From: Spirochaetota bacterium | Lineage (GTDB): Bacteria; Spirochaetota; UBA4802; UBA5368 | Reading direction: 5' to 3' | Length of the DNA stretch: 64,000 nt | Assembly: GCA_004297825.1 (NCBI GenBank) | Contig: SCSX01000093.1 | Span: 62,001 to 126,000, forward strand | Part shown: one piece after another, positions 1,400-40,879 of the stretch | Layout: every line of letters starts with the position of its first letter | Position numbering within the stretch: position 1 is the stretch's first letter | Made by a program: the position numbers and the translations under genes | Notes under the pieces: generated by a model | Seen by the model: the letters and a program-made list of their open reading frames with translations, nothing else | The model's database searches: none | Told to the model about the DNA's origin: nothing

Positions 1400-1954
1400 A
1401 TGAAAATCGAATTACTTCGTGATTTGCTCGATACATACGCCCACAAGGGCAGCCCAAAGTATATTTCAAACCTGGATCTGATGGAGTATTTCAAATCGAA
1501 AAAAAGCGAAATCGATTTCCATGATTTCTCCAGGGTGCGCGATTATTTTCTAAACGAACTAAAAGTTACAAGGTATGCGTTCACGGAGATCTCAGCATGG
1601 TTCAAAGACAATTCACCGGGTTCCGATAAAGAGCGGGACGCGAATAGCATCGAACCTCCCGGCATGGAGCGCTTCAGGGAGGCGCTCGTCCTCAAGCGCT
1701 ATTCCCGCAAAACCGTCAAAGCCTACCTGGGAGCGCTGCGGCGCGCGAACGCCTGGTTCGTCAGAGAGAAGGGAATATCGGCCGACCGGATATGTACCGG
1801 CAACGCGCGGGAGTATTTTCTCTACCTCACGGCGGAAAAAGGAGTATCGGTATCGCTTGTGCGTATGCACCGCTTCGCGCTCGCCTCGTATTTTAAAATC
1901 GTCATGGACCGCGAGCTCGATGAAAGGCGCCCTCACGTTGCGCATCGTTTCTGA
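1400..1954 (+). pseudogene. Tyrosine recombinase / integron-type integrase, N-terminal part only
   Basis: Residues about 90-180 match the SAM-like N-terminal core-binding domain of XerC/IntI recombinases: ERFREALVLKRYSRKTVKAY, then EYFLYLTAEKGVSVSLVRMH. The C-terminal catalytic domain with the R-H-R-Y residues is absent. The frame stops at 1954, and no catalytic motif appears in the other frames before the next gene at 2116. Residues 1-85 are an extra N-terminal segment that I do not recognise. A GGAGG lies about 13 bases before the ATG. The gene diverges from the two minus-strand cassette-like genes, the usual intI arrangement. It is most likely a truncated, inactive integrase. Confidence 0.65.
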
Positions 1955-2541: not shown

Positions 2542-2658
2542 ATCGGGAGTGCCGGCCTTCACGGGAAGTATGCCTTCGATGCGCCGTTTCCGGCGGGGGA
2601 GTTTCTTCTTGATGGCGAATGGAATATTCACTATAATGATAACCTAATGGAGCATCCA

Positions 2659-5139
2659 ATGCACAGACTCCGCGCGATTCTTTACATAGCGGTTCCATTG
2701 CTGGTGACGTTCAATGTCGCCGCGGTATTCCATTCTTCGAGCGGATCGATGTTCGCCCAGGACGAAGCGGATTCATGGGAAAACCATTACGGGTCCGATG
2801 AATCGGGCGCTTTCAAAAAATCCCCCCTCAATCCTAAAAGCTCATGCGAGACCGCCGCGTCGAACATAGAGCGCGCCGCGCAGGCGATCCTTGGAGAAAA
2901 AAAAGCTCTCACAAGGAATCCTCGGGTTGCCTGGGATCATGCATCCGATCCGAAATATTTCAAACAGGTCAATGACCGGCTGTTGCTGAAGAAAAAGGAA
3001 AGGGCGATCCTGTATAAAAACGGGTTCGTCGTACTGCCCAAGACCGAAATGGATAACTACGGATACGCGTATCACGAAATATATCAGTCCGAGATACCCG
3101 TGTACGTGACGATCGATTCGATCATGCACGCGATTTACATATCGAACGATGAAATACTGAAAGACCTGGAAGTAAAGATCCTTGAGCCCTCGTTGAACAA
3201 AGCAATCGAGGCTATGCGGACACGGCTGGCTTCCCCGGGTGCGACCCTGCCCGCGGACACGCTTCACGACCTTGACGTATATCTGACCCTTGCCGCGTCG
3301 CTCCTCAAGGGCTCGGTACTTCCGTCGCAGTTCCGGACCGACGACCAGGTGAAGGCGTTGTACGCGATGGCGATGGAGGCGAAGGACATAAAAACCGTTT
3401 CCCTTTTCGGAAGGATGAGAAAGGTCGATTGGAGCCAGTACGCGCCGCGCGGGCATTACGCGGATGAAGATTTCCAGAGGTACTTTCGCGGCGCGATGTG
3501 GCTTTCCCGGACGGAGTTCAACCTCTCCTCGCGTTCCTGCATGAGCTCGTGCCCGGGGGAAGTTCCCGATCCGTCGGAGACGCCGCGGGAGGTGCTCGCC
3601 GCGCTCGCCCTGTCCGCGCTCGCGGAATCTTCCGGGGCCGCCGGCGAAATTGCGCTGGTCGAGCGCAGTTGGGACCTTCTTGCCGGGATGCGTGAGGATC
3701 TCTCCCTGCGGGACGTGGCGGAAATAAAAAAGAGCGCGGGCATCGTGAATCTCGACGGCGATGCGGCCGGCCGCTTTATAAAGGCGCTTGGGGGCCGATT
3801 CGCGAGAACCGTCAACACGCACCCCATGCCGAACGGAACCAAAGAGCTTCCCGCCATCTGCACCATGCTCGGGCCGCGCATAACGTCCGATACGGGGGCG
3901 CTCCGGTTTGTCCACGACCCCGCGGTGAAGGAGCGCAAGGTGGTAAGCGTCTGCGATATGGGGTATGCGCTGGGAAGCGACCGCGCGAAGAATTACCTCA
4001 AGGCGGAATTGGCGCGCTACCCGGAGCTTTCCCCCGCGCTGGAAAATGCACGCAAGGCGGCGAACACCGCGAAGGACCCGGGCGATCTCTACTCGGCGTG
4101 GATGTCGGCCATCCGGAAAATGGGACCAAAGGCCGACGGCGTTCTTCCCTCCGTAATGGAGCACCGGGCGTACGAAGACCTTCGCCTGAACGGAATCGTC
4201 GCGGCCTACGGCCAGGTAAAGCACAATTACGTTCTCATGGCCGCCCAGGATTATTTTTTCGGCGGGTGCCGGATCCCGGACGGGTTCGTGGAACCGCTGC
4301 CGGCCGTCTACGCCGCGCTCATGGACTACGCCGCGCGAGGGACGAAGGTGCTTTCGGTAATTGATCCGGAAGGCCGGACGAAATCGCTCGCGTATTTCCA
4401 AAGAACGTTAAAAACGCTCTCGGTGCTCAAGGCGATCTCGGAACGGGAACTCGCGAATGTTCCCCTGTCGGACGAAATGAAAAATTTCCTGTACATGATC
4501 GCGGAGCTCGAGCCGGGAACGACCGGCGGGCCCCCGGTGTATTCGGGATGGTACTTCGATCTCTTTTACACCCGGGCGGACGGCATGAGCGGCGCGGCAT
4601 TCATCGCGGATTACTTCACCTCGCCCGAAGCGGGCAAGATCGGGTATGCCGGGGTTTCGGGCGTAAATTTCGGCGTGTTCGTCGTAGACACGTGCGGGGC
4701 GCCGCGGCTGTTCGTGGGACCGGTCCCCCGCGCCTTCGAGTTTATCGGACCTATCGATTCAAGGCTGACCGACGCCGCGGCCCCGACCCTCACCGGCGTG
4801 AAGAACCCGTGGGCGGAAAGCTACACCGCCCCGGCGTATAAGGCCCCGTCCCTGAGGGTTTCCTTCAATCCGGCCGGGGAAGGAAAGACCGAATGCGACG
4901 TCGAAACGACGGAATCCTCGGGTCTTCTCCGGATCGTGCTGCTCGATCACCACCGCAAACCCATATGCCAGAAGAACGTGAAGCTGAAGCCCGGCAACCG
5001 GCACCTTGCCATTGTCGTGCCCCCGAAATCGAAAAACCCTGAGGCCGTCTACCTGGGCTTCGGCCGCTGGGAGTACTGGAGCGAATTGAATTTCATGGGC
5101 ACGTATCTCGAGTTCGGGAGCATGAAGACACAGGAATGA
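2659..5139 (+). CDS. DUF3160 family exported protein
   Basis: About 826 residues with an N-terminal signal segment (MHRLRAILYIAVPLLVTFNV) and then a long mostly helical region. The block GFVVLPKTEMDNYGYAYHEI followed by YVTIDSIMHAIYISND is typical of DUF3160 proteins, as are ELEPGTTGGPPVYSGWYFDL and the region around YFTSPEAGKIG. The function of the family is not known; it is predicted to act outside the cytoplasm. The frame also has an ATG at 2647, but GGAG at 2649-2652 sits correctly for the ATG at 2659. It is convergent with the TlpA-like gene and separated from it by a shared palindrome. Confidence 0.85.
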   Translation: MHRLRAILYIAVPLLVTFNVAAVFHSSSGSMFAQDEADSWENHYGSDESGAFKKSPLNPKSSCETAASNIERAAQAILGEKKALTRNPRVAWDHASDPKYFKQVNDRLLLKKKERAILYKNGFVVLPKTEMDNYGYAYHEIYQSEIPVYVTIDSIMHAIYISNDEILKDLEVKILEPSLNKAIEAMRTRLASPGATLPADTLHDLDVYLTLAASLLKGSVLPSQFRTDDQVKALYAMAMEAKDIKTVSLFGRMRKVDWSQYAPRGHYADEDFQRYFRGAMWLSRTEFNLSSRSCMSSCPGEVPDPSETPREVLAALALSALAESSGAAGEIALVERSWDLLAGMREDLSLRDVAEIKKSAGIVNLDGDAAGRFIKALGGRFARTVNTHPMPNGTKELPAICTMLGPRITSDTGALRFVHDPAVKERKVVSVCDMGYALGSDRAKNYLKAELARYPELSPALENARKAANTAKDPGDLYSAWMSAIRKMGPKADGVLPSVMEHRAYEDLRLNGIVAAYGQVKHNYVLMAAQDYFFGGCRIPDGFVEPLPAVYAALMDYAARGTKVLSVIDPEGRTKSLAYFQRTLKTLSVLKAISERELANVPLSDEMKNFLYMIAELEPGTTGGPPVYSGWYFDLFYTRADGMSGAAFIADYFTSPEAGKIGYAGVSGVNFGVFVVDTCGAPRLFVGPVPRAFEFIGPIDSRLTDAAAPTLTGVKNPWAESYTAPAYKAPSLRVSFNPAGEGKTECDVETTESSGLLRIVLLDHHRKPICQKNVKLKPGNRHLAIVVPPKSKNPEAVYLGFGRWEYWSELNFMGTYLEFGSMKTQE

Positions 5140-5150
5140 AATTTTGAGTG

Positions 5151-5178
5151 GAAGGCGCGGATTCGAATCCGCGCCTTC
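5151..5178. terminator. Perfect 28-bp palindrome between convergent genes
   Basis: GAAGGCGCGGATTC is followed directly by its reverse complement, ending in the stop codon of the minus-strand gene. It can form a very stable hairpin in both directions. There is no clear T-run on either side, so it may be a bidirectional mRNA-end structure rather than a classic terminator. Confidence 0.45.
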
Positions 5179-5678
5179 TACGGCAACGCGCCTATCGCCT
5201 GCTCAAGCCGCGTCATCGTATCCTCGCGGAAACCTATCTCCTGGAAGGGCATGTTCCCATTCTGGTCCACCAGGAAGGTGGAGGGGAGGCTTTTCTGGGG
5301 ATTATACTTGCTGATCGCGACGTGGTACACGTCCAGCAGGAAGTCGTGGCTCACACCGATCTTCTTCATGAATCCCGCTGCCTTGTCCCTCGCCTTGCCC
5401 TCGCCGTCGTTCAGGTCCGCGGTGATGAGGATGAGCGTGAGGTTCTTCGTCTTGCCGTATTTCTTTTCAAGCTCCACCAGCAGCGGTACGTCTTTTTCGC
5501 AGGGCTTGCAGTAGCTCGCGAAGAAGGAGATGATGAGGTTGCCCTTGAGCGAGGACCTGAAAACCATGGTCCCCTTGTCATTTTCCAGCGCGAAGCCGGG
5601 GGCCGTCTGTGCGTCCGCGAGTCCCGTCCACAGCGCGATGGCCGCGATCATGAAAAATGCCGTGAGTCTATTCCTCAT
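5178..5678 (-). CDS. TlpA-type thiol-disulfide oxidoreductase, exported
   Basis: The 166-residue protein has a signal peptide (MRNRLTAFFMIAAIALWTGL, cleavage near ADAQ) and one thioredoxin fold. The active site is SYCKPCEKD (CKPC). The cis-proline motif is LPSTFLVD, followed by the short strand NMPFQEIGF. TlpA/ResA proteins reduce or exchange disulfides in exported proteins, often for cytochrome c maturation. No cytochrome gene is nearby, so the partner is unknown. AAGGAG lies eight bases before the ATG. It is transcribed away from the barrel/RND operon. Confidence 0.88.
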   Translation of the reverse strand: MRNRLTAFFMIAAIALWTGLADAQTAPGFALENDKGTMVFRSSLKGNLIISFFASYCKPCEKDVPLLVELEKKYGKTKNLTLILITADLNDGEGKARDKAAGFMKKIGVSHDFLLDVYHVAISKYNPQKSLPSTFLVDQNGNMPFQEIGFREDTMTRLEQAIGALP

Positions 5679-6005: not shown

Positions 6006-7166
6006 ATGATGATGACCGCTCAACGCCGCACATTCCTGTACGCAGCCTTCCTGGGCGCGTATCTGTTCACCGCACCTTTTTACCGCACCCCCGCCGTCGC
6101 CGACGCGGAACCCGCTGAGAAAACCGAAGCGGCCAAACCCGCCGGGGACGCCGCTGAGAAAAAAGAGTGGGGCTATCTCCCGTTCGCGATCCCCTTCTAC
6201 CTGCCCGAGACGAGTGTAGGGATTGGCTGGGCGTTCCTCGTGTTCCACAATCCCGATTTATCGGACCCCTCGCTCAAGCCCGACGAGTACTCGCTGTATG
6301 GCGCGGTCACGATAAAAAACCAGCAGACGGTGGGCGTCTCCGCGGACCGGTATTTCGACAGGAACAAGTACCGGCTCTCGACGCGGCTCGATTTCAGCCG
6401 CTTCCCCAACGTCTTCTGGGGCCTGGGGCCCGATACTCACGGCGATGACGACGAGGACTTCACCGATATCATGACGAACTTCCAGGGGAGCTTCGCCGTG
6501 AGGCTCGCGAAAAATCTCTACGCGGGGCCGGCCGTGAATCTCCTCTACGACGACATGATGAAGACCGAGAAGGGCGGGCTCCTCGACTCCGGAAAAATTC
6601 CGGGGGGTGACGGAACCCACGCCTCGGGAATGGGCGCGGTCGTCACGTGGGATTCGCGCGACAGCGTGTTCTATCCGTACCGCGGCGTGTACCTCGACGT
6701 GAAGGCGCTCGCGCACCTGGACGAGGCAGGAAGCGAGTACGACTTCCGCAAGCTCGAGGCGGACGCCCGCGCATTCCTGCGAATCTACGGCGAGATGGTG
6801 CTCGCCCTGCAGTCCGTCGCGAAGCTCTCGTGGGGAACGGTGCCCTTCCAGTCCATGCCGCGCCTTGGCGGGGATCAGATCATGCGCGGCTACTTCGACG
6901 GGCGGTTTCGCGATCGCGACCTGGTGGCGGCGCAGGCAGAGATCCGCTACCCGATATTCTGGAGGTTCGCGGGGACCGCCTTCATGAGCGCCGGGCAGGT
7001 CGCGCCCTCGCTGCATGAGATGAGCGCGCACAACGTGAAATACGCCGGCGGCGCGGGACTGCGCTTCATAGCCGAGAAGTCCGAGCACATCGCGCTCAGG
7101 TTCGATGCGGGCGTGGACGGCGACGGCAACGTGAACTTCTACGTGATCATCAAGGAAGCGTTCTAG
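6006..7166 (+). CDS. BamA/TamA-like outer-membrane barrel protein
   Basis: The 386-residue protein has a signal peptide and a short charged linker (about residues 35-52), then a 16-strand-type barrel like the C-terminal domain of BamA/TamA (surface antigen D15). The MRGYFDGRFRDR motif matches the lid-loop RGF/RGY motif of the superfamily, and the last residue is Phe as in many barrels. There are no POTRA domains, unlike BamA (about 800 residues), so it is probably not the essential insertase. GGAGG precedes three consecutive ATG codons; I use the first. It is followed after 15 bp by the RND gene and probably works with that export system. Confidence 0.82.
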   Translation: MMMTAQRRTFLYAAFLGAYLFTAPFYRTPAVADAEPAEKTEAAKPAGDAAEKKEWGYLPFAIPFYLPETSVGIGWAFLVFHNPDLSDPSLKPDEYSLYGAVTIKNQQTVGVSADRYFDRNKYRLSTRLDFSRFPNVFWGLGPDTHGDDDEDFTDIMTNFQGSFAVRLAKNLYAGPAVNLLYDDMMKTEKGGLLDSGKIPGGDGTHASGMGAVVTWDSRDSVFYPYRGVYLDVKALAHLDEAGSEYDFRKLEADARAFLRIYGEMVLALQSVAKLSWGTVPFQSMPRLGGDQIMRGYFDGRFRDRDLVAAQAEIRYPIFWRFAGTAFMSAGQVAPSLHEMSAHNVKYAGGAGLRFIAEKSEHIALRFDAGVDGDGNVNFYVIIKEAF

Positions 7167-7181
7167 GCGGGGAGGGGCGTC

Positions 7182-10100
7182 ATGATGAAACTCGTGGAAT
7201 TTTTTGTCGAGAACCACCGGATCACCAACATGATCGTGGCGCTCGTCTTCATGGCCGGGGTATTCTCGATGCTCACGCTCACCCGCGAGGAAATGCCGCA
7301 CATGAGCATGTACATGATGCGGGTGACCACGGTCTATCCCGGCGCGTCGCCCGGGGACGTGGAGGTCAACGTAACGGGCAGGATAGAGGACGAGCTTCGG
7401 GGCGTCCGCAACGTCCGCGCGCTCACGAGCGTGTCGATGGAAGGGATGTCCGTCATCGCGGTGCGCATCGACGAGGAGGCGAAAAATCCCGAGGCGGTCA
7501 AGGCCGACGTGCGCGAGGCCGTCGCGCGCGTCACGGGGCTTCCCGAGCAGGTGAGCGCGCGCCCGCGCATCGAGGAGGTCACGAACGAGTACCCGATTTT
7601 CGAGCTCGCCGTCCAGGGGGACGCGTCGGAGCTCGAGCTCAGGGCGCACGCGCGGGCGCTCGAGGCGAAACTCCGCGAGGTGCCGGGCGTGGGTACGATC
7701 GAAAAAATCGGCTACCGGAAGCGCGAGGTGAAGGTGGATGTGCGCCCCGCCGATCTCAAGCGGGACCGCATCGCCGTCGCCGACGTGGTGAACGCCATCC
7801 GCGCGCGCAACGTCCGCGAGAGCGGTGGCTCGCTCGACTCCTACACGGACGACCGCACCGTGGTCACCCTGGCCGAGTACGAGCGCCCCTCGCAGGTGGG
7901 CGAGGTGATCGTGAGCGCGAACTTCGAGGGATACCGCGTGCGGCTTTCGGACATCGCCGTGATCCGCGACGGCTTCGAGGAGCCCGCCGTGCTGTACCGC
8001 GGCAACGGGAAGCCCGCGATCGCGCTCATGGTCACGCGGCAAGAGGGGGCCGATATACTCACGCTGAGCGAAAATATCCGGGAGGCGGTCGACGCGTCCA
8101 GGAAGACGCTCCCGTCCAATGTCCGTATCGAGGAGATGTACGACTTCTCCGTCCTCACGCGCAGCATGCTCGACAGCATGGCGGCTAACGCCCTTATAGG
8201 CTTCGCGCTCGTGTACCTGGTCATGTTCTTCATGCTCGACCGCGTGAGCGGCTTCTGGGCGGCGTTCGGGATACCGTTTTCCATATTCGGGACCATGGGC
8301 CTCATGGCGCTTTTCGGCATGACCATGAACATGGTCTCGCTCGCGTCCATGATCATCGTGCTGGGGCTCCTCGTGGACGACGCGGTCGTGATCTCGGAGA
8401 AGATTTACCTCTACAAGCAGCGCGGCATGCCCCCCGTGCGGGCGACCATCGAGGCGGTGCGGCGCATGGCGCTTCCCGTGGCCGCGGCGGGCCTCACCAT
8501 CATCGTATCCTTCTTGCCCATCCTCTTCATCCCCGGGATCATGGGCCGCTTCATGCACCAGATCCCCGTGGTGATCGCGATGATGTTCGTCACCTCGCTC
8601 ATCGAGGGATTCTTCTTCCTGCCGGCCCACGTGTGCCGTGCGCAGGCGCGCCTCGTGGAGCCGCGCCGGCTCCGCTGGCTCGATGATTTGAAAAAGGCCT
8701 ACGCGCGCCGCCTCGAATGGGCGATCCGGAACAGGAAAAAGTTTATCGGCGCCTCGCTCGCCTTTCTCGCCGCCGCCTTCGCGGCAGCGGCGCTCTTCCT
8801 GGACTTCAAGCTCGACGAGGACCAGGACCCCGACATCATCGCCATCGTCGCGGAGACGCCCGGCGGCACCTCGCTTGCCGCGACCTCGGACCTCATGGCG
8901 CACGTCGAGGGCGCGGTGCTCGCCGCCGTGCCGAAGGAATGCCTGAAGAACATGGTCACCCAGGCGGGCCACCACACCATGAGCGCGGACTACCTCGCGG
9001 TGGGCGGCATGCGGCAGAATTACGCGATCACCATCGTCTACCTGCTGCCCTCGGCCGACCGCGCGGTGCGCTCCGAGAAAATGATGGACGCGCTGCGGCC
9101 CCTGCTCGCGGACATCAAGAAGCAGCGCGGCTTCCCGCGGCTCGATATCGAGCAGTACGGGTTCGCGGTGGGGCGCGCGGTCGAGCTCACCTTCATCACC
9201 GACGACGACGCCGCGCGCGCAAAGCTGGAGGCGGACACGCTCGCGTTCCTGCGCGGGACGGACGGCGTCTACGGGATCGAAACCGACAGCGCACCCGGCA
9301 AGCCCGAGATGCGCGTCGGCCTGGACCACGACGCCATGGCGCGGTCGGGCCTTACGGCGGCCGACGTCGCGCGTACCCTGCGCGCGGCCTTCGACGGAAT
9401 CGTCGCGACTTCTATTCGCCTCCAGGGGGAGGAAATCGATTTCCGCGTGCGGGTGAGGGACGGGAGGCAGGACGCGGGCCGCATACTCGCCCTCCCGGTC
9501 TCGAACGCGGAAGGGAGGCTCGTTCCGCTCTCGCTCGTCGCGCGCCTCGAGGAACACGAGGGCGCCCCCGTGCGCTATCACCTTGCGGGAAGGCGCGCCG
9601 TCACCATCCGGGCGAGCGTCGATGAGACGAAGAACACGCCCTCCGCGGTGAACGCGCTCCTGAAAGACCATGTCGCGGCGTCGGCGGCGGGGGTGCCGGG
9701 TCTCACGGTGAAGTTCGGCGGGCAGGAGGAGGAGGCGGCGCTCAGTATGAGGGGTTTCTTTCTGGCGATGGGCGTGGCGCTCGCGGCGATGTACGTGCTG
9801 CTCGTGATACTCTTCCGTTCCTACCTGCAGCCCGTGCTCACGATGACCGTGATCCCCTTCGCGCTCGCGGCGGTTTTTCTTACGCTCCTCATCCACGGCA
9901 TGCCCCTCCTTTTCGTCTCGCTCGTCGCGATGATAGGCCTGCTCGGCGTGGTGCTGAACGACGCGATCGTGATGATCGACCAGCTCAACCAGGAGTGCGC
10001 CTCGCGCGAGCCCGCGGCGATCGCTGCCGCGGCGACCGACCGCGTGCGGCCTATCCTTCTCATCTCGCTCACCTCGTTCGTGGGGCTCGTCCCCACCTCG

Positions 10101-10331
10101 TACGGCATCGGCGGCGACCTTCCGCTCATGCGGCCGCTGGTGCTGTGCATGGGATGGGGCGTGCTCTTCTGCACCGCGGTGACGCTCTTCTTCATACCGG
10201 TGCTCTATTCCTTCGTGAAGGAGCGCGGTCCGGGCGAACCTGAAATATCTGCGCCCGAAAATGCCGCTGCCGTTGCCGTGGCGTCACGGGTTACGCGCGT
10301 GAAAAAAATGCGTGCGGGGAGGAAGTCATGA
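7182..10331 (+). CDS. RND family efflux transporter, inner-membrane pump
   Basis: At 1,049 residues it has the full length and duplicated layout of AcrB-type pumps: a helix at residues 14-32, a large periplasmic part, six helices, then the second half. The proton-relay pair Asp399-Asp400 is present in GLLVDDAVVISEK, and the second-half helix has GVVLNDAIVMID. The AYARRLEW linker between the halves is normal. No adaptor gene lies in the operon, although RND pumps usually need one. GGGGAGGGG precedes ATGATG. The stop overlaps the tolC-like start (ATGA), indicating translational coupling. The substrate cannot be told. Confidence 0.93.
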   Translation: MMKLVEFFVENHRITNMIVALVFMAGVFSMLTLTREEMPHMSMYMMRVTTVYPGASPGDVEVNVTGRIEDELRGVRNVRALTSVSMEGMSVIAVRIDEEAKNPEAVKADVREAVARVTGLPEQVSARPRIEEVTNEYPIFELAVQGDASELELRAHARALEAKLREVPGVGTIEKIGYRKREVKVDVRPADLKRDRIAVADVVNAIRARNVRESGGSLDSYTDDRTVVTLAEYERPSQVGEVIVSANFEGYRVRLSDIAVIRDGFEEPAVLYRGNGKPAIALMVTRQEGADILTLSENIREAVDASRKTLPSNVRIEEMYDFSVLTRSMLDSMAANALIGFALVYLVMFFMLDRVSGFWAAFGIPFSIFGTMGLMALFGMTMNMVSLASMIIVLGLLVDDAVVISEKIYLYKQRGMPPVRATIEAVRRMALPVAAAGLTIIVSFLPILFIPGIMGRFMHQIPVVIAMMFVTSLIEGFFFLPAHVCRAQARLVEPRRLRWLDDLKKAYARRLEWAIRNRKKFIGASLAFLAAAFAAAALFLDFKLDEDQDPDIIAIVAETPGGTSLAATSDLMAHVEGAVLAAVPKECLKNMVTQAGHHTMSADYLAVGGMRQNYAITIVYLLPSADRAVRSEKMMDALRPLLADIKKQRGFPRLDIEQYGFAVGRAVELTFITDDDAARAKLEADTLAFLRGTDGVYGIETDSAPGKPEMRVGLDHDAMARSGLTAADVARTLRAAFDGIVATSIRLQGEEIDFRVRVRDGRQDAGRILALPVSNAEGRLVPLSLVARLEEHEGAPVRYHLAGRRAVTIRASVDETKNTPSAVNALLKDHVAASAAGVPGLTVKFGGQEEEAALSMRGFFLAMGVALAAMYVLLVILFRSYLQPVLTMTVIPFALAAVFLTLLIHGMPLLFVSLVAMIGLLGVVLNDAIVMIDQLNQECASREPAAIAAAATDRVRPILLISLTSFVGLVPTSYGIGGDLPLMRPLVLCMGWGVLFCTAVTLFFIPVLYSFVKERGPGEPEISAPENAAAVAVASRVTRVKKMRAGRKS

Positions 10332-11908
10332 CCGGAACATTGAAAAGATTCGGGGGGCCGATACTCTTCCTGGCGATAGTGATGCTTTTCCAGGCACATG
10401 TTTTCGCGGAGGACCGTGCGATCGCGCCCGCGGTAAAAAATATCGAAGCCGACGCCGTGAGCGACCGGGAAACACAGGCGAGGCCCGCGCGCATCGATCT
10501 TCGCGGGGCGATACAAAGGCTCCTGGCCGGCAACAGCGATGTGAAGACCCTGCTCATCGAATACGAAGGCGCCGGTGACGCGCTGCTCAGGAACGGGGCG
10601 AAGTACGATCCGTTGCTCATCGCCGGGGCGGAGGGGGGACGGAGCGTGAGCTACAACATGTTCACCCGGTCCACCGACGGCGTGTCGACCGCGCGCGGAT
10701 ACGGCGGAATCGAGCAGCGCCTGGGCACCGGCACGACGCTGCGGGCGACCCTGGACAGCTCCCTGGCGATGATGCCCGAAACCCGTCTCCTCGTGGGCGG
10801 GGAGAGGTTCGATTTCGGCGGGGACGTGTATAACACCCGTGTGCGTCTCGAGATCGCGCAAGATCTATTTAAAAACGCGTTCGGGAGCGCCGACCGGCTG
10901 GAAAAGAAAAGGGCCGGGACCCAGGCAGATATCCAGAAGGCCGTCGTGCGGGCCCGCCTGGCCGTCCTTATCGCCGCGGCAGTGGCATCGTTCTACGACG
11001 TTGCGGACGCCCGCGCGGAACTGGCGACCGCACGCGCCGATATTCAGAGCACGACGGGGATACGGGACATGCTGGCGCTCAAGCTGACCCAGGGACTCGC
11101 CGCGCCCGAGGAGGCGTACGAGTGGAACTGCAGGCTCTCGCAGGCGCGCATGGCGGCGGCGGCGTCGGAAAGGAGGCTTGACGAATGCATGAGCGCCTTG
11201 CTGCGCGCGCTCGACATTCCGCCGGGGGGCGCGATTGAGATCGAGGAGGCCTTCACCGTGAACGCCCCCGATGTTCCGTTCGATTCCGCGCTCCGCGACG
11301 CGTTCGCGAAACGCCCGGACTGGCGCGCGCGGAAGCTCGCTGTAGAACGGGCCGGCCTGGAACTTGAGATGGCGTCTAACGGCGCGCGCCCCTCGCTTAT
11401 GCTGAAGCTGGGCGCCGGGGGGAACGGGTACGACCCGGACTCGTACCCGGGAACGCTGGGGCAGGGGCGGCAGGCCGTCGAGTATTACGCGGGTATGGAA
11501 ATGCGCTACCCGTTAGGGGATTCCGGTGCCGCGGCCGACGAGGCGGAGGCCGGGAGGAACGCCGCCGTAGAGCGGGAGAATCTGAGGAAGATCGAGCGCG
11601 AGATTCGCGACGAGGTCGCCGCGCGCATAAAGGACTGCGCATCGGCGCATGCCGTGTACCGCGAGGCCGGGGAGGCCAGGGAATTCGCGCGGGCGTATTA
11701 CGCGGAGGTGCTCATGCAGTTCCAGCGGGGAAGGGTCCAGTCGACGAACCTCAAGACGGCGCTCGATACGTATACGCGCGCGGAACACGTCGCGGCGCGC
11801 GCGCTGCTCGGATATAACATTGCGCTTCTCCGCAGGGACCTCGCGCGCAACACCTTCATCGAGGGACTTGGCGTGGATATCGAGGCCCTCTTGAGGAAGG
11901 TTGAATAG
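10328..11908 (+). CDS. TolC family outer-membrane channel protein
   Basis: The 526-residue protein has a signal peptide (hydrophobic run GGPILFLAIVMLFQAHVFAE) and two OEP repeats made of long helices and paired strands. The first begins RIDLRGAIQRLLAGNSDVKT and the second DALRDAFAKRPDWRARKLAV-like. TolC proteins form trimeric channels that span the outer membrane and periplasm. It overlaps the RND gene by four bases, so the two are translated together. It probably completes an export path with the RND pump. A weak hairpin at 12108 may end the transcript. Confidence 0.9.
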   Translation: MTGTLKRFGGPILFLAIVMLFQAHVFAEDRAIAPAVKNIEADAVSDRETQARPARIDLRGAIQRLLAGNSDVKTLLIEYEGAGDALLRNGAKYDPLLIAGAEGGRSVSYNMFTRSTDGVSTARGYGGIEQRLGTGTTLRATLDSSLAMMPETRLLVGGERFDFGGDVYNTRVRLEIAQDLFKNAFGSADRLEKKRAGTQADIQKAVVRARLAVLIAAAVASFYDVADARAELATARADIQSTTGIRDMLALKLTQGLAAPEEAYEWNCRLSQARMAAAASERRLDECMSALLRALDIPPGGAIEIEEAFTVNAPDVPFDSALRDAFAKRPDWRARKLAVERAGLELEMASNGARPSLMLKLGAGGNGYDPDSYPGTLGQGRQAVEYYAGMEMRYPLGDSGAAADEAEAGRNAAVERENLRKIEREIRDEVAARIKDCASAHAVYREAGEAREFARAYYAEVLMQFQRGRVQSTNLKTALDTYTRAEHVAARALLGYNIALLRRDLARNTFIEGLGVDIEALLRKVE

Positions 11909-35678: not shown

Positions 35679-36392
35679 TCAGTTTCGTGCGATGATCTCA
35701 TCCAGCAGGCGGAATAATTCCGGGGGCAGCGCGGGTCTCGTTGGCGCGGGTTTACCGGGCATGAGCTCGCGGAACACGAAATCGACGGTGTAGTCGAGTG
35801 CCTTCGCGGCCGTATCCTCCGAGGCAAGGTCATCGCGCCAGACCGTGTCCTCGTTGATCTGGCGGAAGAGCACCAGGTTCGTCACGAAAGAAAAAATACT
35901 GTAGACCACGAAGAGCGGGTAACGCGTCTCGAAAAATCCCCCGCGTATTCCCTCGAGTATGATGTCGAGCACGATCTCACGGCGGCGGGAGAAGAGCTGT
36001 TCCTGTTCGATCTTCCGGAGATAACGGCCGCCGTCCGAAAGCTCCCTGAAAATGATCTTGTACACATACTCGTCGCGCTTTTTCAGGAACAGGTTCACCA
36101 CGAGGTAGATCGCGATGAAGAGCCGTTCGGGCGGCGCGAGATCGAAGGCCTTGAGCGTCTCCAGGAGCTGTTCCTTTTCGATGTCCCCGAATATCTGCCG
36201 GATCACGAGGAGGTAGAGGTCCTCCTTGCTTCCGAAGTGATAAATCACCAACGCCGGGTTTACGTGCGCGAGGCGGGCGATCGATTTGACCCGCGCGCCG
36301 GAGAGGCCCCGCTCCGCGAATTCATGGCAGGCGGCGGCGTATATCCGGTCCCGTAAGACGCCTTTCGTTTTATCTGTCTTTCTTGATTTCAT
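35679..36392 (-). CDS. TetR/AcrR family regulator
   Basis: The 237-residue protein has the N-terminal TetR helix-turn-helix: FAERGLSGARVKSIARLAHV and NPALVIYHFGSKEDLYLLVI. Its ligand-binding C-terminus is less conserved. It overlaps the upstream tolC-like gene by 23 bp and is the fifth gene of the ABC export operon, so it is most likely the repressor of that operon and possibly of the RND operon. Candidate operator motifs lie at 40890-40919 and 5933-5948. Confidence 0.88.
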   Translation of the reverse strand: MKSRKTDKTKGVLRDRIYAAACHEFAERGLSGARVKSIARLAHVNPALVIYHFGSKEDLYLLVIRQIFGDIEKEQLLETLKAFDLAPPERLFIAIYLVVNLFLKKRDEYVYKIIFRELSDGGRYLRKIEQEQLFSRRREIVLDIILEGIRGGFFETRYPLFVVYSIFSFVTNLVLFRQINEDTVWRDDLASEDTAAKALDYTVDFVFRELMPGKPAPTRPALPPELFRLLDEIIARN

Positions 36393-37842
36393 CCATGAGT
36401 CCCAGGAGCTGCACGAGAATGCGCCGCGCGTCCACGCGGTCGGTGATGCGGATAAGCTCGTAGTTCAGGAGGGCGTTGCGGTCCTGGATAACGAAGTAGA
36501 GGTCGCTCTGGCCCTGGAGATATTTTCTCTCGTCGGCCGCGAGTTGAACGCCCGCCTGGGCGATGAGCTCCTCGTCCTGCCTGATCACGGTTTCGTAGGC
36601 GCGCACGGTATCGCGAAGCTCGTCCACGCTCTGTGAGTAATTGCGCTCGAAGGCGCGCAGGTCCTGCTCCCAGCGCTTCAGTATCGCCCGGGTTTCCTCC
36701 ACGCGTCCTTCCCCCAGGCTGTTTTGGAGAGGGTAGGAGAGGGCCGCCCCCGCGCTGTACACGGGATAGGGAAACCGGTCGAGAGAGTCCTTCCCGTCCA
36801 GGGCATAGTTGCGCGCGCGGTACGAGAGTGAGAGATTGAGATCGGGAAGGAGCGCGTTCCTGTCGCGCTCCAGGGTGCGCGCGAGCACTTCGCGCGACAG
36901 GTTCAGTATCTTCATCTGGCGTGTCGAATAAATTGAAAAATTCTCAGGGACGCGCGCGGGCAGTACGAGCTCTTTCTCGGGTTCGATAATCTCTCCGGGC
37001 TGGGCGGGCCTGTTGTAGCACCACCGGTACACTTTTTGCGAAAGGTAGCCCAGCCTGGTCGCCGCGAGGTCGCGCGCCTTCGCGTACTCGACGGCGACGA
37101 TGCGCGCCCGGGCCACGTCCCCGACGTCCGAGAGGCCGTTCGCGAACTTGTTGGCCACGGTCGCGACGAGGTCCTCGCCGTTCTTCACGTTCTTGGCGTA
37201 GATATCCTGCTGATGCCATGCGAGGTACCAGCTGAAGTAGAGATTGTACAGGTCCGCGATCACCGTCTCTATGCTCTCGTCGACGGTCTCCCTCATGATG
37301 AGCCGGTTCAGCTCCGCCTGGCGCACGGGAAAGCGGTCGAGCATCCCCAGCCAGTTTTTAAGCAGTGGCTGTTGAACCTCGATATAGGCCTCTGGATTGT
37401 AGAGCTTCGCATCGATTATGTCGGGTACGGGAGTCAAGCTCCGGTTGACCCGAAGCGCACTGCGGTTGTAGTCCACGCCCCCGCGCACCCGTGTGCCGGT
37501 CCACGGGGAAATCCACGAAAAGCCCGCCCCCGCGTTGTCCGTGTCCTGTTCCTGGATTCGCGACGAAGAGTACTTCGTGTAGGGGGTCTCGTGGAGCTTG
37601 TTGTAATGAAGGTCGAAGACGATGTCGTTCACGGCCTTCGCCTGGAGCTCGGCGCTTTCGGCCTCGCGGATGCGGGCGAGCTCGCGGAATATCTCGGGCG
37701 TGTGCAGGATTGCCCCGTCGATGAATTCCCTGAGCGTGAGGACGGAAGGGGCGGTATCGGCGCCCCGCGCCATGGCCGGAAGGCACAGCGCGCACATGGC
37801 GATAATGAACGGCATCATGCGTGTGAGGAAATTTATTTTCAT
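36370..37842 (-). CDS. TolC family outer-membrane channel protein
   Basis: The 490-residue protein has a signal peptide (FIIAMCALCLPAMARGAD) and two OEP repeats, starting LTLREFIDGAILHTPEIFRE and, in the second, NLSREVLARTLERDRNALLP. The C-terminal half has LPDLNLSLSYRARNYALDGK. It is the outer-membrane channel of the export system with the preceding ABC ATPase. It overlaps the ATPase by four bases and the TetR gene by 23, so translation is coupled along the operon. Confidence 0.9.
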   Translation of the reverse strand: MKINFLTRMMPFIIAMCALCLPAMARGADTAPSVLTLREFIDGAILHTPEIFRELARIREAESAELQAKAVNDIVFDLHYNKLHETPYTKYSSSRIQEQDTDNAGAGFSWISPWTGTRVRGGVDYNRSALRVNRSLTPVPDIIDAKLYNPEAYIEVQQPLLKNWLGMLDRFPVRQAELNRLIMRETVDESIETVIADLYNLYFSWYLAWHQQDIYAKNVKNGEDLVATVANKFANGLSDVGDVARARIVAVEYAKARDLAATRLGYLSQKVYRWCYNRPAQPGEIIEPEKELVLPARVPENFSIYSTRQMKILNLSREVLARTLERDRNALLPDLNLSLSYRARNYALDGKDSLDRFPYPVYSAGAALSYPLQNSLGEGRVEETRAILKRWEQDLRAFERNYSQSVDELRDTVRAYETVIRQDEELIAQAGVQLAADERKYLQGQSDLYFVIQDRNALLNYELIRITDRVDARRILVQLLGLMDEIKKDR

Positions 37843-38537
37843 CGCTTCTTCCGCCCCTTCTCCTTCCGCGTATCGGAGGTGATCATGCCGTCGACAAGGT
37901 GTATCTGCCTTCCGGCGCGCGCGGCGAAATCCATCTCGTGCGTGACGAGGAGAATGGTCGTCCCGTGGTTCCGGTTTATTTCCTCGAAGATCCGCAGCAC
38001 CCGTTCGCCGTTGATCGAATCCAGGTTCCCCGTGGGCTCGTCGGCGAAGAGGAAATCCGGGTCCATGATGAGCGCGCGGGCGATCGCCACGCGCTGCTGT
38101 TCGCCGCCCGACATCTGCATGGGAAATTTATTGATGCAATGGTCGAGCTCAAAATCGTGAAGGAAGCGGAGCGCCTTCGATTTCTTTTCCTTTTCGTTCC
38201 GGAACTTGCGCGCGGGCATGAGGATGTTCTCGATCGCGGTGAGCTCGGGGAGCAGGTAGTGGAACTGGAAGACGAAACCTATGTGCCCGTTGCGGAAATC
38301 GTGAAGGGAGGCGCTGTCCATGCGATGCACGTTCTTCCCCGCGATGTAGACCTCCCCGGCGGTGGGATCGTCCAGCCCGCTGGTCACATAGAGCAGCGTG
38401 GATTTCCCGGAGCCCGAGCGGCCGGTGATCGCGACGAATTCGCCGCGCTCCACGGTGAACGAGATGTTCCGCAAAACCTCCGTGGGTGGGTCGCCGAAGT
38501 TCTTGACGAGCGACTGGCAGAGCACGCCGCTGTTCAT
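37839..38537 (-). CDS. ABC transporter ATPase, MacB/LolD type
   Basis: The 232-residue protein has the full ABC set: Walker A GRSGSGKST, signature MSGGEQQRVA, Walker B FLFADEPTGNLD and H-loop LVTHEMDFA. The MacB/LolD family powers export of macrolides, lipoproteins or peptides with an FtsX-type permease. The permease gene is upstream, separated by a foldback element, and the tolC-like gene follows with a four-base overlap. The substrate is unknown. Confidence 0.92.
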   Translation of the reverse strand: MNSGVLCQSLVKNFGDPPTEVLRNISFTVERGEFVAITGRSGSGKSTLLYVTSGLDDPTAGEVYIAGKNVHRMDSASLHDFRNGHIGFVFQFHYLLPELTAIENILMPARKFRNEKEKKSKALRFLHDFELDHCINKFPMQMSGGEQQRVAIARALIMDPDFLFADEPTGNLDSINGERVLRIFEEINRNHGTTILLVTHEMDFAARAGRQIHLVDGMITSDTRKEKGRKKR

Positions 38538-38584
38538 GATTTAATCTTCGTGTTCATATTTTGTTTATATCCAGTGTCATGCAT

Positions 38585-38856
38585 TAAATCCCCGGCCCTC
38601 CGGGGCAGGCTAACGGCGCGACATCCTGTCGCAACGCCTGCATTTGGACATCCTGTCCATCACCGCCCCCTTTAATAAAGGGGGCTCTATTGATAATGCT
38701 TCGTGACGATATTTTGACTCCCGCCATTCAAAATTCAACAAGCGACCCCTGATGGCTCCCCTTTATCAAAGGGGAGCTGTGACGCACAGGATGTGCTAAT
38801 CCCGGCGTTGCGACACGATGTCGCACCTCTAGCCGGGCCGGAGGCTTGGGGGATTT
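38585..38856. mobile_element. MITE-like foldback element between ABC genes
   Basis: Bases 38585-38685 are an imperfect inverted copy of 38754-38856. Each arm holds small nested palindromes: GCGACATCCTGTCGC and GGACATCCTGTCC on the left, GCACAGGATGTGC and TGCGACACGATGTCGCA on the right, and CCCCCTTTAATAAAGGGGG against CTCCCCTTTATCAAAGGGGA. It carries no gene and separates the permease from the ATPase, which otherwise would be a typical close pair. No target duplication was confirmed. Confidence 0.6.
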
Positions 38857-38872
38857 TTAACAGCAATGTCCA

Positions 38873-40102
38873 TCACGAGTTCCTGATAATATCGATAGGC
38901 GAAAGCTTGCCCGCGTTGCGCGCGGGGATGATACTCGCGAACACCGAGCTCGCCAGCACGATAAGAAACGCCTTCAGGTAAATGGCCGCGTCCCATGACA
39001 TGGGCATGTGTCCCTGTCCCACGCTGATCTTTATCGTTTCGATGCGCGAACAGGCGTACGCGCCCAGGCCCATTCCCGTGAGCGCGCCTATGAGCCCCAG
39101 GATGACGCCCTGCACCAGGAAGAGGAATATCGTATCCATCTGGTCGTAGCCCACGCTCCTGAGTATCGCGATCTCGCGCTTCTTCTGATTTACGACCATG
39201 TTGAGAATGTTGTAGATGCCAAAGGCGACGATGAGCATGATGGTGAAGGTAGTCACGTTGCGGACGATGCCCTGCGTCTTCAGGGTCACGCGCACGTCCT
39301 CCTTCGCCTGGTCCCAGCTTTCCACGCGGTCGGCGGTGGTGCGCTGCCATTCGATCGCGGTATCGGCCGAAGAATGAACGTCCACGAGGCGCACCACGAG
39401 GTCCGATATTTCTCCCGGCGACTGCGTGAGCTTCTGCACGGTGGAGATCGACGAATAGGCGATGCGGTTGTCGATCTGCTTCACGCCGGTACTGTAGACC
39501 GCGACGATCTTCACCGGGAACACGACGCCGTGGGCGTTCACCACGTTCAGGGAGCCGTTTACGGAACAGCCCAGGCGCTTCATCATCTCTTCGCCCACGA
39601 GCACCAGGGAATCGCCGCGGGACACGTCGCCGAGCTTTCCCGTGATGATGTCGCGCTCCATGTTCGTCACGCGCGCCTGGGCCTCGGTGTTGACGCCCAC
39701 GAGGCGCACCGGCATGGAAAACTTGCCGTGCGTGAACATCACCTCGCGTATCAGCTGCGGGGCGTGTGCCACGACGCGGGGGTCGGCGGCGAGGCGCTCG
39801 TACCATCCCTGGATATTGGAAAGGTAGGTGTTGTTTATCCGGCCGGAGGGCGGGGTGATCCACTTCACGAACGTATCCGGGAAGAACACGTTGCGGAAGG
39901 TCTCCTGGCTTATAATCTCGTCGCGCGGGGAGATGCGTATGTAGGCGTCCACGTTCACCAGCCGGTCGATGACGTAGTCCTGGTAGCCGAGCTGCATGCC
40001 GGAAAAGACTATGTAGCCCGCGCAGCCTATGGTGATTCCCAGGAAGGTGAGTATAGTCTGCTGCGGGCGGTTGATAAGGTGCCGGATCGCGAGGAAGAAC
40101 AT
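38873..40102 (-). CDS. ABC transporter permease, MacB/FtsX type
   Basis: The 409-residue protein has a first membrane helix in RPQQTILTFLGITIGCAGYI, a large periplasmic MacB_PCD domain, then three C-terminal helices (TTFTIMLIVAFGIYNILNMV, FLVQGVILGLIGALTGMGLG, AFLIVLASSVFASIIPARNA), the FtsX layout. NQKKREIAILRSVGYDQMD is the conserved cytoplasmic coupling helix. It follows the adaptor by three bp and precedes the ATPase after the foldback element. It makes a mechanotransmission-type export pump with them. Confidence 0.9.
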   Translation of the reverse strand: MFFLAIRHLINRPQQTILTFLGITIGCAGYIVFSGMQLGYQDYVIDRLVNVDAYIRISPRDEIISQETFRNVFFPDTFVKWITPPSGRINNTYLSNIQGWYERLAADPRVVAHAPQLIREVMFTHGKFSMPVRLVGVNTEAQARVTNMERDIITGKLGDVSRGDSLVLVGEEMMKRLGCSVNGSLNVVNAHGVVFPVKIVAVYSTGVKQIDNRIAYSSISTVQKLTQSPGEISDLVVRLVDVHSSADTAIEWQRTTADRVESWDQAKEDVRVTLKTQGIVRNVTTFTIMLIVAFGIYNILNMVVNQKKREIAILRSVGYDQMDTIFLFLVQGVILGLIGALTGMGLGAYACSRIETIKISVGQGHMPMSWDAAIYLKAFLIVLASSVFASIIPARNAGKLSPIDIIRNS

Positions 40103-40105
40103 GGG

Positions 40106-40879
40106 CTACTCCCGGGGCATGACGATCTCGTCCGAGGCCTTCACCGAGCCGTCGGTGACCTCGGCCCAGGCGCCGTCAATCGCGCCTAACGCGGGCGTCG
40201 CGGACGCGGCCTTCCCCTCGCGGCGCAGGGCCACCACGCCGTCCTTGACGGCAATCACGGGGATCATGAGCGCCTCGTCCCTGCGGGCGACCTCGATCGC
40301 GACGTCGGCCGTCATATCGGGAAGCACCTCCGCGGGCATTTTCGCGACGCCTATGCGCGCGAGGAACTGTCCCCCGGACGGGTAGATGCTCTCCACCGTG
40401 CCGGACAGCCGCGCGCCGCGCATGGTTTCAACGGAGAGCTCGGCCTTCTGGCCCCGCCGCACGCGTAGTGCCGCGTTCTGGTCCAGCGAGACCTGTATGT
40501 AGGTCCGGCCCAGGTCCATCATCGTGAGGACCGGTTGCCCGGTGATGACCACCTCGCCCTCCTCGCAGTGGAGGCGGGTCACGGTGCCGGCGAAGGGCGC
40601 GAAGAACGCCGCCCCGGATTCGGTGACGGCAAGCTGCATCCCCTTCGCGACGGGCTGGCCCTCGCTCACGGAGAGGCGGCGGATCGTCGCGGGGATTCCC
40701 ATCTTGAGCGTATACACGCTGTCCGATTTCACCGTGCCCAGCGCGTAGATCGCCTCGACAATGGGACCGGTGCGCGGCTTCACCCGGGTGGCGCCGTTGC
40801 CGGCGACGAGGCGGATTACAACGACGAGCACCACGAGTCCGCCCGCGGCGTACAGAATCAGTTTCTTGTGTTTTTTCAT
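40106..40879 (-). CDS. Periplasmic adaptor (membrane fusion protein) of the ABC export system
   Basis: The 257-residue protein has an N-terminal membrane helix (LILYAAGGLVVLVVVIRLVA), a barrel-sandwich (lipoyl-like) domain made of VKSDSVYTLKMGIPATIRRL and APFAGTVTRLHCEEGEVVIT, then a beta-barrel and a final domain with VIAVKDGVVALRREGK. It lacks a long coiled hairpin. Such adaptors bridge MacB-type permeases and TolC. It opens the operon. No Shine-Dalgarno is visible before the ATG, only the AT-rich operator-like region. Confidence 0.88.
   Translation of the reverse strand: MKKHKKLILYAAGGLVVLVVVIRLVAGNGATRVKPRTGPIVEAIYALGTVKSDSVYTLKMGIPATIRRLSVSEGQPVAKGMQLAVTESGAAFFAPFAGTVTRLHCEEGEVVITGQPVLTMMDLGRTYIQVSLDQNAALRVRRGQKAELSVETMRGARLSGTVESIYPSGGQFLARIGVAKMPAEVLPDMTADVAIEVARRDEALMIPVIAVKDGVVALRREGKAASATPALGAIDGAWAEVTDGSVKASDEIVMPRE

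Follow-up and report, generated by a model that had tools for sequence, protein, structure and literature searches.

Spirochaete RND exporters that lack an adaptor gene, with one branch paired to a POTRA-less Omp85 barrel

In resistance-nodulation-division (RND) exporters of the AcrAB-TolC kind, an inner membrane RND protein and an outer membrane channel are joined by a periplasmic adaptor, and passages of a review call this adaptor mandatory for pump activity (PMC8277102). Later electron microscopy work, in the part available to us (PMC4446572), rules out direct contact between RND protein and channel in AcrAB-TolC. A spirochaete gene cluster that unites an Omp85 barrel with an inner membrane exporter, BBJ23-29, is reported only from Borrelia in the portions of PMC13078400 at hand. 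Here, we describe a three-gene operon in a 64,000-nucleotide stretch of DNA (hereafter the window; positions 62,001 to 126,000 of contig SCSX01000093.1) from the genome of a Spirochaetota bacterium (G000; 4.9 Mb in 96 contigs, 95% complete). The three genes encode an RND exporter, its TolC-type channel and a co-operonic Omp85 barrel that lacks POTRA domains. The operon contains no adaptor gene, and we find that this lack characterises the RND lineage and is not a local loss.

The barrel gene (6006-7166, + strand) comes first and is followed, after a 15 bp spacer, by the RND gene (7182-10331, + strand), which in turn overlaps the channel gene (10328-11908, + strand) by 4 bp. The order, spacing and families given for these genes in the initial annotation are exact, with Pfam matches supporting the families. 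Its observation that the operon lacks an adaptor also holds over a wider range: with frames read from stop to stop, nothing adaptor-like appears within 5 kb of the RND gene. G001, the other genome of the genus, has the identical three-gene order, likewise without an adaptor; its RND protein is 85% and its barrel 79-82% identical to those of the window, and the flanking genes differ. Because the same adaptor-free trio persists in the same order amid different flanks, the arrangement is not due to chance. An adaptor gene between barrel and RND in close relatives, which the initial annotation had named as the sign of a simple loss, was found neither in G001 nor in G043, a genome from another family of the order.

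The RND permease (1049 aa, AcrB-type topology) matches PF00873 (ACR_tran) with 548.5 bits over residues 5-1012 and scores under the cut-offs of the narrower NCBIfam subfamilies. It is not an MMPL-type protein, since PF03176 reaches 22.9 bits on a single segment, and its nearest solved chain by sequence is MdtB (243.7 bits). The aspartate pair of transmembrane helix 4 is present (D399, D400). The position of AcrB K940 is occupied by N926, and nearly all rows of its clade and of the adaptor-linked set also have N or S there. Export by the protein is presumed to be proton-driven.

To define this lineage, we drew RND neighbourhoods from 59 genomes of the phylum by similarity rank to the window RND (one listed match of the upper rank range, G042:C136, lies outside the sampled neighbourhoods) and set them against adaptor-bearing loci. 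In a tree of 111 RND proteins (a quick LG+G4 run with long branches flagged), the window protein belongs to an adaptor-free group of 67 with a Shimodaira-Hasegawa-like approximate likelihood ratio test (SH-aLRT) value of 98. The remaining rows comprise 34 with an adaptor, which do not represent a frequency because they were picked in part from the list of adaptor matches, and 10 others without. None of the 67 clade members and none of the 10 others has an adaptor-like frame within 5 kb, versus all 34 adaptor-linked RNDs (stop-to-stop frames, no overlap filter). The hidden Markov models used for this search detect E. coli AcrA at E 1e-76, and they detect adaptors beside all three of the non-spirochaete RND loci that sequence similarity alone returned. 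At least 1 kb of sequence flanks 57 of the 67 clade RNDs on both sides, and at least 2.5 kb flanks 47; the other 10 have less than 1 kb on one side. Since 27 of the 34 linked adaptors lie within 50 bp of their RND gene, these flanks are long enough that a normal adaptor would show in most of the 67. The clade therefore very probably has no dedicated adaptor gene in Spirochaetota, and this suggests that such pumps join their inner and outer membrane parts another way, perhaps directly.

Upon comparison of the two partners of the pump, the residues that set adaptor-free pairs apart fall at the tips of hairpins. On the RND side, the tip of hairpin β2 (N775-E777, codons 9504..9512, + strand) carries an asparagine, N775, two residues N-terminal of E777, which aligns with AcrB D795. 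This asparagine is found in 67/67 clade RNDs and 8/10 of the other adaptor-free RNDs, versus 3/33 adaptor-linked ones (residue counts omit L136, hence 33 rows rather than 34). Of 1005 columns, this one separates adaptor-free from adaptor-linked RNDs best, and the asparagine turns up again in a second adaptor-free group. The tip of hairpin β1 (N247-E249, codons 7920..7928, + strand) repeats this geometry: E249 aligns with AcrB D256, and N247, two positions before it, is N in 82% of the clade versus 21-24% of the adaptor-linked rows. At column 251, 91% of the adaptor-linked RNDs have a gap.

The channel (526 aa) matches PF02321 (outer membrane efflux protein, OEP) with 56.9 bits. Its AlphaFold2 model has a mean pLDDT (predicted local distance difference test) of 66.9, helices of ordinary length and TolC as its best matches in the PDB. 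Position 469, at the tip of the second helical hairpin (codon 11732..11734, + strand), falls in the turn between model helices 399-466 and 472-507 and aligns with T366 of mature E. coli TolC, next to G365. It is arginine in 23/25 clade-linked channels (the other two have a lysine and a gap) and in 0/26 adaptor-linked ones. In the passages of Bavro et al. available to us, which draw on the cross-links of Tamura et al. (PMC2292822), AcrB β2 with D795 lies near TolC helices H7/H8, and β1 with D256 lies near G147 of H3/H4. N775 and R469 thus map onto the cross-linked hairpins, so that the adaptor-free pairs are marked at the very surfaces of the direct-docking model.

The barrel protein (386 aa) consists of a signal peptide, a low-complexity linker of about 30 residues and an Omp85 β-barrel, which matches PF01103 with 45.8 bits (cut-off 24) over residues 113-378. 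The broader model NF047779 (Omp85_fam) gives 93.6 bits, under its cut-off of 200. A family search for a POTRA domain found no match, and only the signal peptide and linker precede the barrel. R294-G295-Y296 (codons 6885..6893, + strand, as read from the translation) is identical in G001, and we take it to be the loop-6 type motif of Omp85 proteins. A phmmer search of the barrel and channel against PDB chains returned nothing, and an AlphaFold2 model of the barrel built from two sequences was not usable (pLDDT 28.8).

Barrel and RND form a real pair, as they are co-operonic in two families of the order. In G043 an RND gene (47% identical to that of the window) is followed by a barrel gene (49%) with a 4-bp overlap and no OEP gene alongside; the link between barrel and RND therefore survives a change in gene order, and TolC is not always present. 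Next after this pair come a MarR-type regulator and another RND of the clade (L082:8226-12002). Close barrels are uncommon: of 392 genomes in the phylum, 25 have a match at E 1e-20 or better. In a tree of 29 barrels, which leaves out the short barrels L200 and L201 and in which the lack of a transporter partner was judged from HMM scans of neighbouring genes, all four transporter-linked barrels (window, G001, G043 and G017) form one clade (99/99). Behind the G017 barrel, 44% identical to that of the window, come genes for a LolA_like protein (164.5 bits), two permeases of the FtsX type and an ABC (ATP-binding cassette) ATPase. This BBJ25-like export cluster (L088:7473-14372, from another family of the same order) also holds a 514-aa protein with a weak DUF3187 match. 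The L089 barrel has an ABC ATPase gene about 6 kb distant. Outside Spirochaetota, three annotated plasmid neighbourhoods of barrel relatives contain no RND gene; the record of a fourth, from Cupriavidus, comes without a gene table.

These features point to a tentative mechanism. The hairpin tips of the TolC-type channel would sit directly against the funnel (docking) domain of the RND trimer, following the older AcrB-TolC cross-linking model, with contacts by the conserved asparagine of RND hairpin β2 and the conserved arginine of the channel's H7/H8 tip. Judged from the sequences of both partners, direct docking has a little less than an even chance of being correct. The barrel would not bridge the two but would accept a hydrophobic cargo (a lipid, a lipoprotein or a glycolipid) at the outer membrane or insert it there, and elsewhere the same type of barrel would be served by a LolCDE/LolA-like ABC route. 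Passage of such cargo through the barrel is possible, though we would rate it somewhat below even. Taken as a whole, directly docked RND-channel export with the barrel as hydrophobic-cargo acceptor is our best explanation, and it falls just short of being probable. The initial annotation had raised a differently built export machine with the barrel in the adaptor's place; we retain such a machine as the leading reading, with direct docking of RND and channel proposed in place of a bridging barrel.

Several observations weigh against this explanation. An OEP gene on the same strand lies within 200 bp in only 25 of the 67 clade members, and many of these RNDs may therefore depend on a distant channel or have none. 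R at 469 also occurs in 2 of 20 further adaptor-linked channels, both from ABC-type loci (most of the 20 come from such loci, and one of them was counted in the 26 as well), and in the second adaptor-free group neither R nor K stands there in 3 of 5 channels. N775 and R469 are mostly co-inherited, leaving just three independent contrasts (sign test p 0.25-1), so no significance can be attached to the tip signatures. L277, an RND from Vibrio, falls within the clade (SH-aLRT 97 together with L091, on a long branch) and has directly upstream an ordinary adaptor of 272 aa, which matches HlyD_D23 over 37-248 and has a helical hairpin region; the clade is thus adaptor-free as sampled in Spirochaetota, not everywhere. 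L277 carries T at 775 and L at 247 while keeping the clade residues D291, P462, H905 and Y974, which would fit the expectation if N775 and N247 mark adaptor absence, in a single case on a long branch. The cargo assigned to the barrel is a guess from neighbouring genes. Finally, an adaptor from elsewhere, including an ABC adaptor, may serve these pumps, for which we found no RND-type adaptor.

This last point leads to an ordinary tripartite exporter that borrows its adaptor from another operon in the way that AcrD borrows AcrA; AcrAD-TolC is named in passages of PMC8277102. Material for such borrowing exists, as two family searches recognise six adaptors in G000 (plus a weak 105-base match on C27), and the tips of the window channel retain G256-L257 and G468, as in TolC. 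Yet each of the six belongs to a unit of its own: RND genes accompany two of them (C12, C36), and ABC-type genes the other four (C33, C66, C58 and window 40106). The proteins of adaptor-free pairs also have tip signatures unlike those of adaptor-linked pairs. In G014 (96% complete), the one RND among the matches listed belongs to an OEP-RND pair of the clade, and no adaptor is RND-linked: the adaptors stand in ABC operons, and a third family match is weak and in an unrelated frame. In G018, at least six RND genes among the matches listed, several of them of the clade, face a single adaptor above the cut-off, in an ABC operon. We therefore regard borrowing in trans as unlikely, though well worth keeping in mind. 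The initial annotation had suggested one specific lender, the gene at 40106, which is the nearest adaptor gene to the operon at a distance of 28 kb. This suggestion does not hold up, because 40106 heads a minus-strand ABC unit of its own, a MacAB-like set (window 35679-40879, - strand) of adaptor (40106), FtsX-type/LolE-like permease (38873), ATPase (37839), OEP (36370) and a gene read as TetR-type (35679). Its product is 257 aa long, and because the lipoyl domain is contiguous (PF00364, residues 66-120), it appears to lack the α-hairpin; we rejected it as a dedicated partner of the RND. The pairing of a short adaptor with an FtsX permease recurs in G014 and G026 (L264, L263) and recalls the hairpin-less BesA.

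The barrel itself admits other roles. The RND could work by itself or need just the barrel, and could shift a lipid-like cargo inside the inner membrane or out of it, with TolC as a passenger or acting separately. The RND-barrel pair of G043 without an adjoining OEP gene would fit, as would the 42 clade RNDs without a near same-strand OEP gene and the placement of the barrel's nearest other relative among LolA_like and LolCE-type genes. By contrast, the 4-bp overlap of RND and TolC in the window, the conservation of this pairing in G001 and the recurrence of OEP-RND pairs across the clade speak for a channel that belongs to the pump, and we consider an RND without its channel distinctly unlikely. 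Omp85 proteins assemble outer membrane proteins, and the barrel might thus serve solely to assemble the TolC of the operon or another outer membrane protein. Such a function has been suggested for POTRA-less Omp85 proteins in the available part of PMC4104836, but the G043 unit joins barrel and RND without TolC, and TolC-RND pairs of other clade members have no adjoining barrel gene, which makes this role very improbable. Least credible of all is the bridge between RND and TolC that the initial annotation envisaged. The co-operonic placement of barrel and RND in G000, G001 and G043 is compatible with it, but the protein is an outer membrane barrel domain with a short linker and has nothing to span the periplasm. 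Moreover, the barrel adjoins a clade RND in just 3 of 67 cases (window, G001 and G043), and none was found beside the 64 others, which are adaptor-less all the same. Most clade members thus have neither adaptor nor barrel, and we rejected the barrel as an adaptor substitute. Directly docked export with the barrel as cargo acceptor accordingly stays our preferred reading, with the strength given above. A more general form of it is a guess that we hold to be unlikely: Spirochaetota would possess a class of adaptor-free bipartite RND pumps with matched Asn/Arg tips, one lineage of which became joined to the barrel as a proton-driven counterpart of the ATP-driven Lol-like route.

Other genes near these systems deserve brief mention. 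G000 holds further RND genes with no adaptor within 5 kb (C68:27649, C68:100228, C60:88643, C71:8945 and C27:1158), and four of these five loci (L129, L130, L131, L133 and L135) adjoin an OEP gene. At L145:2695-5397, L151:1817-4522 and L152:7927-10675, clade RNDs are followed by a TPR protein and a protein of 267-274 aa; the TPR identity was called for L145 and L152, where the short proteins have no Pfam match. LolA-like genes were rejected as regular partners of the RND clade: the sole one near a clade RND (L150) stands with an MMPL-type protein on the opposite strand, and the long genes that follow the RNDs in L145 and L152 encode the TPR proteins. In the window, the operon is flanked by a thioredoxin-like gene (5178-5678, - strand) and an electron transfer flavoprotein (ETF) gene (12289). 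Just 5' of the operon region lies the gene of an 830-aa DUF3160 protein (2647-5139, + strand; 296.7 bits), and a 184-aa open reading frame at 1400-1954 (+ strand) has only the N-terminal SAM-like domain of phage integrase and resembles a recombinase fragment. A 1212-aa frame antisense to barrel and RND (6258-9896, - strand) is a shadow of the GC-rich coding strand and no gene. Promoter and terminator scans gave nothing that we put to use.

The interest of the locus shifts from a barrel in the adaptor's place to a whole RND lineage that does without an adaptor gene and of which one branch is paired with a POTRA-less barrel. Whether a channel can dock directly on an RND is an old question, and a large natural collection of RND-channel pairs that lack an adaptor gene would open it to test, since direct docking would be their only option. 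The locus also bears on the delivery of lipids and lipoproteins to the spirochaete outer membrane, since the same type of barrel stands beside Lol-like ABC engines and RND engines. Our searches, confined to a library of open-access papers, found no description of adaptor-free RND-TolC clades.

Compared with AcrAB-TolC, a member of the HAE-1 family, the window system has an RND of AcrB length, the aspartate pair of transmembrane helix 4, a docking domain and a channel of ordinary helix length; unlike it, the operon has no adaptor gene, N926 replaces K940, and the hairpin tips are distinct on both partners. Borrelia BesABC, in the passages of PMC3807786 available, is likewise a spirochaete RND-TolC pump in which recruitment of the channel must differ from the hairpin model, but BesA is still an adaptor, merely a hairpin-less one, whereas the window operon encodes none. 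AmeABCD and other HAE3 systems, as far as the excerpts of PMC6394551 describe them, also combine an RND exporter with an outer membrane protein and name no classical adaptor; they differ in belonging to the HAE3 family and in having two periplasmic proteins, whereas the window RND is an ACR_tran protein by the Pfam scores given above. The barrel resembles the 'noNterm' Omp85 proteins of Heinz and Lithgow (2014), in which N-terminal domains are absent, and the passages of that paper at hand (PMC4104836) mention no RND operon. Closest in gene context is the Borrelia BBJ23-29 cluster, where, in the available part of PMC13078400, BBJ25, an Omp85 barrel that has no POTRA domain and is about as large, shares its spirochaete operon with a LolA-like gene and the LolE/MacB-like ABC genes of an inner membrane exporter. 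The likeness drawn here is one of context. The engine of the window operon is an RND, with no LolA-like or ABC gene in the operon. A BBJ23-29-like gene set does occur in this order: the G017 operon of barrel, LolA_like protein, two FtsX permeases and ATPase is a similar set outside that Borrelia description, and the window operon pairs the same clade of barrels with an RND engine.

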